A stretch of DNA of 59,319 nt from a bacterium. Lineage in GTDB: Bacteria > Elusimicrobiota > Elusimicrobia > Elusimicrobiales > UBA9959. The DNA is taken from NCBI GenBank assembly GCA_021811405.1, contig JAJZOZ010000003.1, positions 1-59,319 of the forward strand, given 5' to 3'. The translations under genes and the position numbers were made by a program. Position 1 is the first letter of the stretch, and every line of letters starts with the position of its first letter. Positions 4,277-58,321 of this stretch are shown here, piece after piece. The notes beneath the pieces were generated by a model. That model did not search any database. It was not told where the DNA came from and saw only the letters and a program-made list of their open reading frames with translations.

Positions 4277-5131
4277 ATGATGAAGACGATAGCGGCGGCG
4301 GTCCTGGCCCTGTCCATGACGCCCGCCAACGCGGCGAACATTACCTTTGACAACGCGGGCAGGAACGTGCTGCCCGCCGTGCGCGGGATGGAGATGCCTT
4401 CCCGCCCCGCCCCGGTGCTCGTGGCGGCCAGCGCCTCCGAGCGCTTCGGCTCCGAGAAGATAGTGGGCGGCATGGAAGCGTCCAAGGGCGAATTCCCCTT
4501 CATCGTCTCCCTGCAGGCCGGCTACTACGGCCACTTCTGCGGCGGCTCGCTGATCAGGAAGAACTGGGTGCTCACCGCGGCGCACTGCGTCGAGGGCGGC
4601 TACCTTAAGAGCGTCAAGATCGGCCTCTTCAACCAGGGCGACACCGCCGGCGTCGAGAACTTCACCGTGGCCGAGGTGGTCAAGAACCCGGGCTGGGACT
4701 CCAACACGATGGTCAACGACTTCGCGCTGATACGCCTGAACGGCGAGTCCAAGTACGCTCCGGTGAAGCTCAACTCGGCCGAGATAGCCGAGGGCACCGT
4801 CTTCACGACCGCCGGCTGGGGCACCACCAGCGAGAGCGGCAGCGTCTCCAAGAAGCTGCTGAAGGTCTCCGTTCCTTTCGTGAACAGGACCGAGTGCGAC
4901 GCCGCCTACCCGGGCAGCCTCGCCGACAGCATGATCTGCGCAGGCTACAAAGAGGGCGGCAAGGACTCCTGCCAGGGCGACAGCGGCGGCCCGCTGCTGA
5001 TGGGCTCCGGCTCCTCCCGCGTGCTCGCCGGCGTGGTGAGCTGGGGCGAGGGCTGCGCCCGCCCCAACAAGTACGGCGTCTACTCCAAGGTGAGCGGCGC
5101 CTACGACTGGATAAACAGCGTCGCGAAGTAA
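4277..5131 (+). CDS. Secreted trypsin (chymotrypsin-fold S1A) zymogen
   Basis: Signal peptide + propeptide, FGSEK|IVGG activation site, LTAAHC, DFALIRL, KDSCQGDSGGP (Asp189/Ser195), SWGEGCARPNKYGVYSKV. Confidence 0.95.
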   Translation: MMKTIAAAVLALSMTPANAANITFDNAGRNVLPAVRGMEMPSRPAPVLVAASASERFGSEKIVGGMEASKGEFPFIVSLQAGYYGHFCGGSLIRKNWVLTAAHCVEGGYLKSVKIGLFNQGDTAGVENFTVAEVVKNPGWDSNTMVNDFALIRLNGESKYAPVKLNSAEIAEGTVFTTAGWGTTSESGSVSKKLLKVSVPFVNRTECDAAYPGSLADSMICAGYKEGGKDSCQGDSGGPLLMGSGSSRVLAGVVSWGEGCARPNKYGVYSKVSGAYDWINSVAK

Positions 5132-5150
5132 GCGGGACGCTTTCCGCGGA

Positions 5151-5181
5151 AAGGCCCGGCGCGAGCCGGGCCTTTTCTTTT
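5151..5181 (+). terminator. Rho-independent terminator
   Basis: AAGGCCCGGC gcga GCCGGGCCTT TTCTTTT. Confidence 0.88.
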
Positions 5182-5221
5182 GCGGGTCTTTGTGTTAGAC
5201 TTTAGCTATCCGGGAGGCAAT

Positions 5222-5761
5222 ATGAAATCAGCCAGGTATCTTTTTGCGGCGGTCTTCCTTTTCTCCGGCGTCTGCCGGCTTTCGGCCGACGAGGTCTCCG
5301 ACTCCGCCCGCGGGGCGGTAAAGGAGGCGGAGGCCAAGATACAGGCCGAGGTGGTCGCGCCCATACTGGGCCCGGGCAGGGCCTACGCCTTCCTGGAGGC
5401 CGAGGCCATAGTCAAGGTGACCAACGACGAGGTCACCAAGTCCGGGGTGGGCAAGACCAGGAAGTCCCGGAAGGCGGGCGAGGCCGAGAAAGGGGAGCAG
5501 GACGAGGCCGGCAGCATGCAGGAGCAGTCGGCGCGGCAGGAGAAGAACAGCTCGGAGAAGAAGAAACACGTTTCGCTGGAGCTCAGGAAGATGAAGCTGC
5601 GGGTGCTCTACGACAGCGCCTCGGTGGGGAAGCCCGCGCTGGAGGCCCTTAAGGCCGCCCTGCTGGGCCTGTATGCCGACAAGCTGGAGGCCGGGGACAT
5701 CGTCTTCGTGCCGGCGCCATTCTACCGCGGGAATTCCAATCCGGAGGCTTCGGCAGGGTAG
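5222..5761 (+). CDS. Secreted protein with FliF/YscJ-like segments (hypothetical)
   Basis: Signal peptide; VVAPILGPGRAYAFLEAEAIV and LRVLYDSASVGKPALEALKAALLGLYADKLEAGDIVFVPAPF resemble the FliF periplasmic region; charged linker. Confidence 0.55.
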   Translation: MKSARYLFAAVFLFSGVCRLSADEVSDSARGAVKEAEAKIQAEVVAPILGPGRAYAFLEAEAIVKVTNDEVTKSGVGKTRKSRKAGEAEKGEQDEAGSMQEQSARQEKNSSEKKKHVSLELRKMKLRVLYDSASVGKPALEALKAALLGLYADKLEAGDIVFVPAPFYRGNSNPEASAG

Positions 5762-53035: not shown

Positions 53036-53081
53036 GCCCGCGCCGCCAATGGCTTCGGCTGAAGCCACTCGCGGCGCGGGC
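53036..53081. repeat. Compound inverted repeat (nested stems)
   Basis: GCCCGCGCCGC caat GGCTTC ggct GAAGCC actc GCGGCGCGGGC. Confidence 0.75.
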
Positions 53082-53262
53082 CTGTTCCTGTTAATGTCAA
53101 CTGACCTTATGCCGGTGGCCCCGATTTGATAAAACACCGCCCCGGCGTCCGCTTCGCGGCCGCCGCGGCGGTCTTTATGTAATTGTTTGTAGCCACCGGA
53201 AGAGGCGGAAACTGCAAAGAACAAGCGGTAGGCCCAGGCCGGCAGCGGCTGGCCGTTTGAGG

Positions 53263-53293
53263 GCCGCCGCCTCCGGCCTGGCCCGGCTTACAA
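53263..53293 (+). repeat. Imperfect direct repeat, left copy
   Basis: GCCGCCGCCTCCGGCCTGGCCCGGCTTACAA; matches 54869..54899 at 26 of 31 positions (counted by eye). Confidence 0.6.
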
Positions 53294-53468: not shown

Positions 53469-54128
53469 ATGGACTTCTCTTTCGCGCAATTCAAGAACAG
53501 GTGGGTGGCCTATTTCGACCTTCTTGGCTTTTCAAGCATGGCTTCTAGTAATTCTGATTTTGGACGCCAGTTGGTTCTTGATATATACGCTGAAGTAATC
53601 GAAAAGGTGAAAGATGTTTCCAAGGAAGCTGCTGGCCATTCCGCCCCTGTAATGCCAGTCTGGTTCTCGGATAGTTTCCTGATGTATACGCCAGGGGATA
53701 CTCCGCTGGAATACCGGGCAATAATATCTGCTTCGAAGCGGTTCATCGAAAAGCAGATCCGGGGCGGCATTCCCGCTTGCGGGATTATAGGTTTCGGCGA
53801 ATTGTTCGCTCATGCCGAGAAAAACGTTTTTATCGGGAAAGTCCTATGCGATGTTGTGCGCCTGGAACAGAACCTGCACTCCGTCGGATTATTTATAAGC
53901 GATGACGCGGTTAAAAAGGCAAGGTCCTATAACTTGCAGCCAACGCGGCACGGATTTCAGCCCATGGGGGAAAAGGGATTTGCTTATACGTTTTACGGAG
54001 GCCCGGCCAACTTCCGGAATCCTTGCCTTTCAAAGCTTGAGGAAATGCAGAGACTGGCCCCGCCAGCAGCCAAAGACAAATATGAGGGCGTGATAAAACA
54101 TGTCGAGAAATTTGCCCGCAAAATATGA
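53469..54128 (+). CDS. Class III nucleotide-cyclase-like protein (ORF open from 53370)
   Basis: WVAYFDLLGFSSM, VWFSDSFLMYTPG, RGGIPACGIIGFGELF, FIGKVLCDVVRLEQ, in the order of a cyclase homology domain with two candidate metal-binding Asp residues. Confidence 0.58.
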   Translation: MDFSFAQFKNRWVAYFDLLGFSSMASSNSDFGRQLVLDIYAEVIEKVKDVSKEAAGHSAPVMPVWFSDSFLMYTPGDTPLEYRAIISASKRFIEKQIRGGIPACGIIGFGELFAHAEKNVFIGKVLCDVVRLEQNLHSVGLFISDDAVKKARSYNLQPTRHGFQPMGEKGFAYTFYGGPANFRNPCLSKLEEMQRLAPPAAKDKYEGVIKHVEKFARKI

Positions 54129-54829
54129 AACAGAAACTTCAGGACCACCCTATATTTACGGAAGCCTTCAAGGCAACACTTGATTTGTCCGAGGACACAC
54201 GGTTCCTACTACTGGCCGGGAAATCCACCTACCAAGGGAAAGAGGTTTTGTTTAAAACGCATGTATGGCTCGGGAAGTTCTGCGCGTTCATGGAGCAACT
54301 TAAGTATGCGGCAGGGATGCTTTCAAAGTATCGAGGAAGCGCCGCTTCCTCCGGCGCAACGCGGTATGACCATATCCAATACGCGATTGAAAACTTTTAT
54401 ATTCGCTATCCATCGGCGCTGGACAGGGCGCTCCGAGCCGTAAATGAGGCCTTCGGTCTTGGATTTAAACCGCGCAAGTGCCGGTACGATAATGTGACGA
54501 ATTCTCCCGGGGTTAAGGGAACTTCCGTGGCGGCGGCCCTCACGGTTATCCACGGCACGACCAGGAAGTACAAAAACGAACGCGACATTATCGCCCATTA
54601 CGGGAATTATGAGGATGATACTTTGCGGGCTATCGGGGCCTATTGTATCGCCAGGAAGATCGACCCGCAAAAATTCTCAAAATGGGATGTCCACAACAAA
54701 ACCATGGCCGATAGTTATGTTAAGGAAAAGAAACGCGAATTCTTCGGGGATATAGTGGTCCTGGAGAAGTTCCTGTACATCTTTTTTGATGCACTTTCTA
54801 TAAAAATATCTGGGAGTCAGAATAGCTGA
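54125..54829 (+). CDS. HEPN-superfamily-like protein (Cthe_2314-like), putative RNase
   Basis: All-alpha protein; YKNERDIIAHYGNYEDDTLRAIGAY has Rx4H with a polar residue after R; ATGA overlap with the upstream gene. Confidence 0.6.
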   Translation: MKQKLQDHPIFTEAFKATLDLSEDTRFLLLAGKSTYQGKEVLFKTHVWLGKFCAFMEQLKYAAGMLSKYRGSAASSGATRYDHIQYAIENFYIRYPSALDRALRAVNEAFGLGFKPRKCRYDNVTNSPGVKGTSVAAALTVIHGTTRKYKNERDIIAHYGNYEDDTLRAIGAYCIARKIDPQKFSKWDVHNKTMADSYVKEKKREFFGDIVVLEKFLYIFFDALSIKISGSQNS

Positions 54830-54868
54830 TTTATGTGCTGATGTCTTAAAATGCGGATAGACTTCGCG

Positions 54869-54899
54869 GTCGCCGTCTCCGGCTTGGCCCGCTTTACAA
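54869..54899 (+). repeat. Imperfect direct repeat, right copy
   Basis: GTCGCCGTCTCCGGCTTGGCCCGCTTTACAA. Confidence 0.6.
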
Positions 54900-55049: not shown

Positions 55050-56141
55050 ATGACCAGAGAGACCGAGCTTCTTGAAGAGATCTATGCCGAGTTTATCAAT
55101 ACTGGACAATTCCCCAGGAGGGAATATTTCAGAAATTCACATCACCAGGACCTCGATATTTTAGACAGCCTAGAAACAAAAGGGACTTTCAATAACCGGG
55201 ATGGTCTATATGCAATACCCATAACTAAGCTTCCCGAGATTAAATATTGGGAATCCGAGAAAGTCCTACCGAATAGAATACTGCCTGTCCTGAAAGAGTT
55301 CCGTCTTGAGAACATGGAGAAAGACAGGACCGTCGGGGAAATCGAGCAGGCTCTGGTCGGCACGCCGGGAATAACTTCCAAAGATATTCAACGCGCTATC
55401 TATTATCTCCAGGAAGCCTGCTTCTTTGAAAGCTATCAAGGGGGACCGAATGCCGGTGGTTATAAGACTGTTCGCCCTAGGGAAGAAGTCCTGCGTTATT
55501 CAACTATTGATAAGCGTATTGAGTCGCTGAAAGGGCAAAGAAAGGCGGCTTCTCCGTTGGCATTCTTGGGGGTCCCTAAAATGATCCAGCCTAAGGGGCC
55601 TTCTCTTTGTGCTCCCAACGAGGCTTGGGCGGAAATCCAAAAAGAATATGACTGTAGCAAGGCTAAGTTCGCTCGCCAGATTAATTTTCTGCCGCGCTTC
55701 AAAAGAGAGGTCGTAATTCGCGATGTCGCACAGGCATTTAGTTGTTTAAAGGCCGGGTTTTATAAGCCAGCCGCTATATTGGCCGGCGGCGCTATAGAGG
55801 AACTGTTGCGGCTCTATTTGAAACACCACGCATTTCCGACCAAGAATAAAACTTTTGAAAACTATATCGATGACTGTGAGCAGCATAAGCTCTTACGGTC
55901 AGGAATCGCTCATCTGACCCACGCGGTCAGGAATTTCAGGAATTTCGCCCATTTGGCTAAAGAGATTTCCAAGAAGCGGTCGATTTCAAAATCAATTGCT
56001 ACTGGCGCAGTAAGCGCGGTCTTCACTATCGTAGGGAATTTTGAAAAGCCGCTCCCGGAGAAGAAGAAGGCGAAAACAATAAAGGGGTCTGGCAGGATAT
56101 TGCGGTTCAAGATCAAAAAGCACGGAGGGGGAAATGGTTAA
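55050..56141 (+). CDS. Hypothetical protein: winged-helix-like N-term and HEPN-like C-term
   Basis: QAFSCLKAGFYKPAAILAGGAIEELLRLYLKHH...HLTHAVRNFRNFAHLAKEI (R-x(n)-H HEPN-type signature). Confidence 0.55.
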   Translation: MTRETELLEEIYAEFINTGQFPRREYFRNSHHQDLDILDSLETKGTFNNRDGLYAIPITKLPEIKYWESEKVLPNRILPVLKEFRLENMEKDRTVGEIEQALVGTPGITSKDIQRAIYYLQEACFFESYQGGPNAGGYKTVRPREEVLRYSTIDKRIESLKGQRKAASPLAFLGVPKMIQPKGPSLCAPNEAWAEIQKEYDCSKAKFARQINFLPRFKREVVIRDVAQAFSCLKAGFYKPAAILAGGAIEELLRLYLKHHAFPTKNKTFENYIDDCEQHKLLRSGIAHLTHAVRNFRNFAHLAKEISKKRSISKSIATGAVSAVFTIVGNFEKPLPEKKKAKTIKGSGRILRFKIKKHGGGNG

Positions 56142-56427
56142 GGTAAATATCCAGCAGAAGGACGGACATGTCAGAGTCGAGGTCTTAATTGAGAGGGCCG
56201 CCAATGATTCAAAGTGGCATCGCCTTGAGGTCGCCACTAACGACGGCTTCAAATGGGATGCCCCGGTGAAGATCGATCTTCCGAATAGTGATAATTGTGG
56301 TGTTACGGACCTGGCCCCTGAATCGGAGCGATTGGTTGTGACATGGGATGGAGAAGTTGTTGCGAAAGAGAAGCTGACATTGTCAGACCGAAGTCGGATG
56401 ATTTCGGCTAAATATGACGTCCAGTGA
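56134..56427 (+). CDS. Small hypothetical protein
   Basis: 97 aa, start overlaps the upstream CDS by 8 nt, SD ggaggggg upstream. Confidence 0.6.
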   Translation: MVKVNIQQKDGHVRVEVLIERAANDSKWHRLEVATNDGFKWDAPVKIDLPNSDNCGVTDLAPESERLVVTWDGEVVAKEKLTLSDRSRMISAKYDVQ

Positions 56428-56452
56428 TGGGCGTTGCTCTGAGTGAGTCTCT

Positions 56453-58321
56453 ATGGCAACAATAATCCCGGCTGAAGCATTAAATGCGGCAACGGGTGGA
56501 GAGAGAAAACTCTTGCGGAAACTTCATGCCGGGCTGCCGCCGGAATGTCTGCTTTGGCATGGAGTAGAACTGCCGGGGAGTTATCAGGCGGATGTCGTCT
56601 GTTATATCCCGGCGCGCGGGCTCATAATCTTCGAGGTGAAGGATTGGGGGCGAGACACGATCCTCACGTGCAATAAAGACGGCTGGGTGATCTGCGACGA
56701 GGGCAAGGATAAGGGAGTCAAATCCCCGTTAACTCAGGTCCGCAACTACTTTTATCGGCTCAAAGAACTATTCGAGAAGAAAAATCTGCTTTTGGCTGAA
56801 GGAGGCAGCTATAAAGGCAAGTTCAAGATCCCTATTGCTTATGCCGTGGTATTCCCAAACATAAGCCGCGCTGATCTGCCCGAAGGAATCGGGGATGTTC
56901 TGCCATACTCCCGCATACTTTCCAGGGAAGATCTGGATGCGCTCGGAGACTCCGTAAAAGGGCCGGAAGCGACGGCTTTCCTGGGCAAGTATTTCAGCGA
57001 GCACTTCTGGCCCAATGAAGCGCTGAATGAGAACGAACGCAATATCCTTATCTCGACGATCTACCCGGAAAAGAGCTATTCGCCCAAAAGCAAGAATGGC
57101 GCGGTGAATTATTTCCTTGATGGCCGTCAGGCTCAGTTGGTGGAGCGTCTGGAATCGGGGCACCATATCATCCGCGGCATCGCCGGCAGCGGCAAGTCAT
57201 TGGTGCTTTGTGCTAAAGCGCAGCTTCTGGCCAGAAGCAAACCGGATGCCAAGATCCTGCTGGTCTGCTTCAATACCAGTCTGAAAAGCCAGCTGGATTT
57301 TTATCTTCAGAGTTTCAACGGAGATAAATCTTCAAGCACTTCCGGAGTGATACATGTTTTCAACTTTCATAAGTTCATTGACTGGCAGGCCAAAAAAGCC
57401 GGGGACGAAGAGGCGTGCCAGAAACATTTGAATGATTCCTGGGAGCATGGCGATGACGACGGGCAAAGCGCCATGCTGGGGGAATATCTGCGGGGGTTGG
57501 CTCTCCGGCCGGATACAGTTAAATACGATGCGATCTTGATAGATGAAAGTCAGGACTTCCATTATTCCTGGCTGAAGGGGCTGCGGGCTTTTATCAAGCC
57601 GGAACCGCATTTACTTATCCTGGCCGAGGACTTTAACCAGAAAATATACCATCGGAAGTTCACTTACAAGGGCGCAGATATCAATGTCCAGGGCCGGGTC
57701 AGGAAACTTCCGATGATCTATCGCAGTACGAGAGAGATAATTGTTCCTGCCATGAGATATCTTCACGGAGAAAAATTCGAGGACAGCGCCAAACAGTATC
57801 TGACTATGGAGGATTGCGTTGCCAATAATTCCAGCGGTAATATGCCGGACCTGCGGCTTTTCCCTAATGATGTAGAAGTCTTCAAGTTCATCGTTGATGA
57901 TATCCGGGCGCAGGTCGAGAATGGCGCAGCCTTTTCGGATATCGGGGTGTTCCACCCTTTCCACAACGGTACTCAGCGGATCGCTGAATATCTGGAAAAG
58001 CATGGAATCCCGGTCTACTGGCTTGCCAAGGACAACCTTGCTAAGAAAAATTTCAGCTTGTCGCGGAATGCTGTCGTGGTAAGCACGATCCATTCGGCTA
58101 AAGGCTTGGAGTTTGACCATGTCTACTTCTCGGGCATTGAATGTTTCCCTTTGGAAAATCTCAAGCTTACCGAAAGAGAGAATGCCTCAATTGTCTATGT
58201 CGGCATGACAAGGGCAAAAAGGCGGGTCGTGCTGATTTCGACCAAAGAAAATCAGACTATTCTGAAGCTGAGGGCGGCCCTGGCTCAATGCGCTGACAAT
58301 TCGGGGGACATGGCCTTGTAG
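56453..58321 (+). CDS. NERD-domain nuclease fused to superfamily I (UvrD-like) helicase
   Basis: NERD: GERKLLRKL...SYQADVVCYIPARGLIIFEVKDWG; helicase: GIAGSGKSLVLCAKA, ILIDESQDF, VVSTIHSAKGLEFDHVYFSG, IVYVGMTRAKRRVVL. Confidence 0.9.
   Translation: MATIIPAEALNAATGGERKLLRKLHAGLPPECLLWHGVELPGSYQADVVCYIPARGLIIFEVKDWGRDTILTCNKDGWVICDEGKDKGVKSPLTQVRNYFYRLKELFEKKNLLLAEGGSYKGKFKIPIAYAVVFPNISRADLPEGIGDVLPYSRILSREDLDALGDSVKGPEATAFLGKYFSEHFWPNEALNENERNILISTIYPEKSYSPKSKNGAVNYFLDGRQAQLVERLESGHHIIRGIAGSGKSLVLCAKAQLLARSKPDAKILLVCFNTSLKSQLDFYLQSFNGDKSSSTSGVIHVFNFHKFIDWQAKKAGDEEACQKHLNDSWEHGDDDGQSAMLGEYLRGLALRPDTVKYDAILIDESQDFHYSWLKGLRAFIKPEPHLLILAEDFNQKIYHRKFTYKGADINVQGRVRKLPMIYRSTREIIVPAMRYLHGEKFEDSAKQYLTMEDCVANNSSGNMPDLRLFPNDVEVFKFIVDDIRAQVENGAAFSDIGVFHPFHNGTQRIAEYLEKHGIPVYWLAKDNLAKKNFSLSRNAVVVSTIHSAKGLEFDHVYFSGIECFPLENLKLTERENASIVYVGMTRAKRRVVLISTKENQTILKLRAALAQCADNSGDMAL

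Follow-up and report, generated by a model that had tools for sequence, protein, structure and literature searches.

The analysis of the window, the whole 59,319-nt stretch of Elusimicrobiota DNA under study, revealed a two-gene cassette in which a stand-alone class III nucleotidyl-cyclase-fold protein, P0001 (53469-54128, + strand, 219 aa), is followed by P0002 (54125-54829, + strand, 234 aa), a HEPN_Cthe2314-family protein and predicted RNase toxin/effector. As the best reading, P0001 belongs to a family of undescribed, defence-associated cyclase-fold proteins, coupled here to a HEPN toxin; a description of the family or of the cyclase-HEPN pairing was not found in the literature searched, which leaves out most subscription papers. 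We put forward tentatively, and with clearly less than even confidence, the explanation that the two genes form an acquired, translationally coupled defence cassette in which P0001 would control the HEPN toxin P0002. The unclassified cyclase-fold family itself is the wider lead and is more solid than the pairing.

The two genes are co-directional and the stop codon of P0001 (TGA) lies within the ATGA at 54125-54128, resulting in the 4-nt overlap with P0002 that the first-pass annotation had described. The cassette is also poorer in GC than the core sequence, as had been remarked there: its GC content is 0.488 versus 0.649 for positions 1-53000, the drop begins after 53.0 kb, and a value of about 0.49 is kept from there up to the contig end. 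Near this drop and closely upstream of the cassette is a GC-rich inverted repeat of 21 nt (53036-53081; 90% complementary, 4-nt loop). In the low-GC stretch, P0001 and P0002 are followed by a DUF4145 (HEPN-superfamily) protein (55050-56141, + strand, 363 aa; Pfam PF13643, E 1.1e-5, barely over the cut-off), the small protein P0005 (97 aa, without match), a NERD-UvrD helicase (56453-58321, + strand; PADLOC C3a187 'NERD+UvrD', E 6.9e-77; Pfam NERD and UvrD_C) and a response regulator. The DUF4145 gene heads the adjoining NERD-helicase operon, the presence of which, noted earlier, is borne out by the Pfam and PADLOC matches, and the helicase corresponds to a candidate-defence model of PADLOC; both genes are context and lie outside the cassette. 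Together with the small gene between them they make up a second candidate defence operon (55050-58321). The surroundings of P0001 and P0002 are a defence-like, low-GC island. The DUF4145 gene was absent in the 31 other genomes of the genus, which therefore offered no reference point for an empty insertion site.

A 32-bp imperfect direct repeat encloses P0001 and P0002 and nothing else, with the left copy at 53262-53293 and the right copy at 54868-54899 (both + strand, 27/32 identical to each other). The core of the repeat occurs only at these two sites in the 2.83 Mb assembly when up to three mismatches are allowed. The alignment score of the two copies is 22, compared with a maximum of 15 in 1000 shuffles and of 20 in 516 real windows; since the pattern was spotted post hoc and the best other real-window score is close to 22, it represents only moderate evidence for arrival as a unit. 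Because of the low-GC island and these flanking repeats, we consider that P0001 and P0002 probably moved or arrived as one unit. An integron cassette was rejected as a candidate, as the matches of the integron-integrase profile were tyrosine recombinases only, all below the cut-off, just as in 14/14 control genomes.

The AlphaFold2 model of P0001, built from 22 sequences, is confident (pLDDT 88.4, pTM 0.87), and the comparison of this model with the PDB by Foldseek revealed class III adenylyl/guanylyl cyclases as matching structures (best E 1.7e-7, probability 1.00). All 50 of the 50 PDB matches listed are class III cyclases, with TM-scores of up to 0.70 by target length and mostly 12-18% identity, and an mCpol/GGDEF identity of P0001 is not favoured on the same grounds. 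The model thereby points to a class III nucleotidyl cyclase fold for P0001, in accordance with the cyclase-like call of the first-pass annotation, which had named a confident fold outside the cyclase superfamily as a result that would speak against it; the predicted fold falls inside. Sequence searches of P0001 gave no match in Pfam, NCBIfam, PADLOC or the PDB, and a profile of its family produced chance matches only when compared with the PDB.

The three motif strings that had suggested a cyclase (YFDLLGFS, FSDSFLMY and IGKVLCDVVRLE) are present and coincide with the family-conserved residues D17, D68 and G123. D17 and D68 are invariant in 57/57 aligned family members, and in the model D17 is placed in strand 9-18 and D68 at the hairpin 62-66/69-73, corresponding to the two metal-binding Asp of class III cyclases in strand 1 and the beta2-beta3 turn; their invariance suggests that they are the metal ligands of P0001. 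G123 is kept in 56/57 members and Arg at position 104 in 55/57, whereas P0001 itself carries C104. The class III transition-state pair N-x3-R after the conserved Gly is not a conserved feature of the 57-member alignment. Position 127, corresponding to the Asn, is C in P0001, mostly I/V in the family and N in 1/57, and position 131, corresponding to the Arg, is R in P0001, yet R in only 5/57, both columns being assigned by our own motif alignment to G-x-x-V-N-x-A-x-R. As the Asn and Arg are not conserved, the fold alone is claimed for P0001 and cyclase activity is not, and any cyclase catalysis would have to be non-canonical.

P0002 matches Pfam PF18730 (HEPN_Cthe2314) with E 8.6e-12 and 45.8 bits versus a curated cut-off of 27.1. 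This was its sole Pfam match above cut-off, and no cNMP-binding domain was found there. The string RDIIAH, on which the earlier HEPN call was based, corresponds to R153-H158 (R153-x4-H158); as an Rx4H string arises in 29% of P0002 shuffles, the motif is weak by itself, and it is the PF18730 profile match that carries the HEPN call, which stands. The AlphaFold2 model of P0002, produced from the single sequence without homologues, is of low confidence (pLDDT 38). Judging from its family, superfamily and motif, P0002 is a putative RNase toxin. Relatives of P0002 were not detected in plasmids, phages, viral contigs or the Elusimicrobia phylum.

P0001 alone as a query to genome contigs gave no relative, and an alignment query then recovered relatives. 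The profile detected them in 14/341 genomes of the Elusimicrobia phylum, 4/229 genomes from the class to which a Pseudomonas belongs, 8/197 genomes of a planctomycete phylum, 12/198 genomes of the Chlorobium phylum, at 18 loci among 85,462 species genomes, and also on a few plasmids, phages and in viral contigs. The low hit rates over many groups indicate that the P0001 family is thinly, yet very widely, spread. The neighbours inspected at about 55 loci from several phyla included no conserved partner. Some relatives are situated within type I restriction operons or next to them (HsdR/HsdM/HsdS; L026, L043, L057, L091), and other neighbours comprise AbiH (L027), SIR2 (L089), a DpnII/MboI-type REase (L101), a nucleotidyltransferase (L024) and small TM proteins (L037, L049, L053); these are raw adjacencies, without a baseline of defence-gene proximity. 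Two relatives are inserted within restriction operons with short gaps or overlaps on both sides, one between hsdS and hsdR (L057:4498-5307) and one between hsdM and hsdS (L091:3787-4713). At L049:4393-4980, the gene of a 4-TM protein of 195 aa shares 4 nt with the cyclase-fold gene, recalling the Pycsar TM-effector layout; the match of this protein to the PADLOC '2TM effector' is very weak (E 0.083). Many relatives are solitary among housekeeping genes (L044, L048, L050, L051, L056). In planctomycete-type genomes, the solitary gene lies immediately upstream of CTP synthase (L044, 4974-5789; L048, 4869-5711), a placement that may reflect a non-defence role or a common insertion site. Two relatives from Acinetobacter plasmids (L118 and L119, about 5001-5740) are located between a heavy-metal-associated gene and cueR, and these copies may be truncated, the annotated genes being shorter than the match.

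Recurrent linkage of the two families, on which the first-pass annotation had made its proposal depend, was not observed: the search gave 0 other pairs, and the cyclase-HEPN pair is seen once, in the window. PF18730 was absent from 17/17 genomes of P0001 relatives searched, gave one weak second match only in 295 genomes searched in the phylum, and was not recognised among the neighbours at the roughly 55 family loci in a tally with 25 of 80 neighbour families listed; the search gave no match in 14/14 control genomes either. Rx4H strings were found in neighbours of 603 aa (L054, with a 575-aa counterpart at L006), 252 aa (L055) and 308 aa (L041). Those tested gave no HEPN match in Pfam or PADLOC and were therefore left out of the linkage count, so that recurring HEPN-like neighbours were rejected as a candidate. 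In a Pseudomonas genome (L054:5805-7616) and a phage scaffold (L006:3889-5616), the gene after the cyclase-fold gene encodes an uncharacterised protein of about 600 aa that carries RSDYVH/RSNYVH and has no Pfam or PADLOC match.

About equally likely as the best explanation is that the two genes are independent, the P0001 family working alone as solitary, mobile genes of defence or regulation and the HEPN gene being adjacent by chance. Relatives that are commonly solitary or reside within unrelated operons (L057, L091) agree with this, as do the roughly 55 loci without a constant partner and the 17 relatives' genomes without PF18730. The ATGA overlap and the single repeat pair round both genes argue against chance adjacency, and the -4 nt coupling of relatives to differing genes (L023, L037, L045, L049) fits partner swapping as well as chance.

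In the explanation that we favour, where P0001 controls P0002, P0001 would act as a metal-binding class III cyclase-fold controller, its fold taken from the model and its metal binding suggested by the invariant Asp residues. It would bind or convert an NTP and, on phage infection, release or activate the HEPN toxin, leading to abortive infection. The control could proceed by a diffusible cyclic nucleotide or by direct contact between P0001 and P0002; as P0002 has no cNMP-binding domain and P0001 no canonical cyclisation residues, contact or a non-canonical product would be at least as likely as a cNMP. In favour of this explanation are the confident cyclase fold, the Asp pair invariant in 57/57, the PF18730 match, the 4-nt overlap, the repeats round both genes and the low-GC island with its NERD-UvrD operon. 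The frequent adjacency of P0001 relatives to HsdR/HsdM/HsdS, AbiH, SIR2 and DpnII/MboI-type REase genes agrees with it as well, as does the precedent of mCpol, another nucleotide synthase that is at times combined with HEPN (PMC12657218). Counting against this explanation, there is no second locus with both families, most P0001 relatives have no constant partner, the Asn (1/57) and Arg (5/57) are not conserved, P0001 is without Arg104 and P0002 is without a recognised nucleotide sensor. A broader proposition, which we regard as rather unlikely, is that the family of stand-alone cyclase-fold proteins constitutes an anti-phage module with a non-canonical site making or sensing a nucleotide and, as part of the same proposition, with interchangeable partners, namely the HEPN RNase in the window and, at other loci, type I restriction or TM proteins.

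MntA of HEPN-MNT systems AMPylates HepT, and by analogy P0001 might be an antitoxin that neutralises the HEPN protein by binding or by nucleotide transfer to an active-site-proximal Tyr. We consider this improbable. We know of no class III cyclase-fold protein that transfers a nucleotide to a protein, most P0001 relatives have no HEPN to neutralise, and the Tyr of the HepT Rx4HxY motif is away from its standard place in P0002. Pointing towards such an antitoxin are the Tyr residues at H+1 and H+4 of RDIIAHYGNY, the retention of the metal Asp pair and not of the cyclisation residues, and the classical pairing of HEPN toxins with a nucleotide-using antitoxin (PMC7641770, PMC11586414).

Slightly less probable still is a Pycsar-type system, in which infection would lead P0001 to make cCMP or cUMP, with P0002 as a new HEPN receptor-effector. 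The layout of two genes fits this arrangement, and so do the pair of metal Asp and the class III cyclase fold. When the metal-Asp region was compared with PycC, as the first-pass annotation had suggested, D17/D68 and the aromatic residue at D-2 (Y15; cf. AnPycC F60, EaPycC F100 and probably BcPycC Y50) agreed, and the residue before the second Asp differed, the position two before D68 being Phe in 53/57 members in contrast to the polar Q144 of EaPycC and K104 of AnPycC. The N-terminal helix alpha7' is a hallmark of PycC (PMC11224242), whereas the model of P0001 consists of coil at 1-8 followed directly by strand 9-18. PADLOC models gave no match at E <=10 with 20 members of the P0001 family, the presence of PycC models in PADLOC-DB being presumed. 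Pycsar effectors combine a cyclic-nucleotide-binding domain with TM or TIR, and neither was recognised by Pfam in P0002. The mechanism proposed originally, a Pycsar variant in which a cNMP made by the cyclase activates the HEPN protein, is therefore unsupported, given the lack of such a binding domain, of conserved Asn/Arg and of a recurrent pair. That the window copy of P0001 is an inactive, degenerate or domesticated remnant is just as doubtful: C104 replaces an Arg kept in 55/57 and relatives are few within the phylum, but the frame is intact, both Asp are retained and the model is confident.

If P0001 controls the HEPN toxin, nucleotide-based phage defence would gain an effector of RNase type together with a cyclase-type site that is non-canonical. 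Regardless of this, annotation has a clear gap here, as no Pfam, NCBIfam or PADLOC model covers the family, whose cyclase fold is confidently modelled, whose metal site is invariant and whose members recur at type I restriction loci.

Among known systems, Pycsar (PycC with PycTM or PycTIR) shares with the cassette the class III fold, the metal Asp, the D-2 aromatic and a stand-alone cyclase beside a putative effector; the cassette differs in its effector, in the base-site residues, in the missing N-terminal helix and in the non-recurrence of the pair. On the tested features of effector domain and cyclase helix, Pycsar membership was rejected and the cassette is not filed there. Compared with class III adenylyl/guanylyl cyclases such as Spirulina CyaC (1WC5) and OaPAC (4YUS), P0001 is alike in fold and in metal Asp positions and differs by its low identity (about 12-18%), by catalytic Asn/Arg and base-specifying Lys/Glu that are not conserved, and by the absence of a sensor domain. 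P0002 resembles the HEPN_Cthe2314 family by its curated score and kept Rx4H; a HEPN survey lists this family as retaining Rx4H and gives its operon or fusion partner as 'None detected' (PMC3710099), whereas a cyclase-fold gene is coupled to it here. HEPN-MNT type VII toxin-antitoxin systems likewise combine a HEPN toxin and the gene of a nucleotide-using partner, that partner being a polymerase-beta-type nucleotidyltransferase, in contrast to the class III cyclase fold that Foldseek indicates for P0001. Panoptes and other mCpol operons encode a Cas10/GGDEF-like palm domain, unlike the fold of P0001; they also place a nucleotide-synthase-type gene beside an effector, and HEPN RNases occasionally occur coupled or fused to mCpol (PMC12657218), which provides a precedent, in another fold, for the combination of a nucleotide synthase with HEPN.
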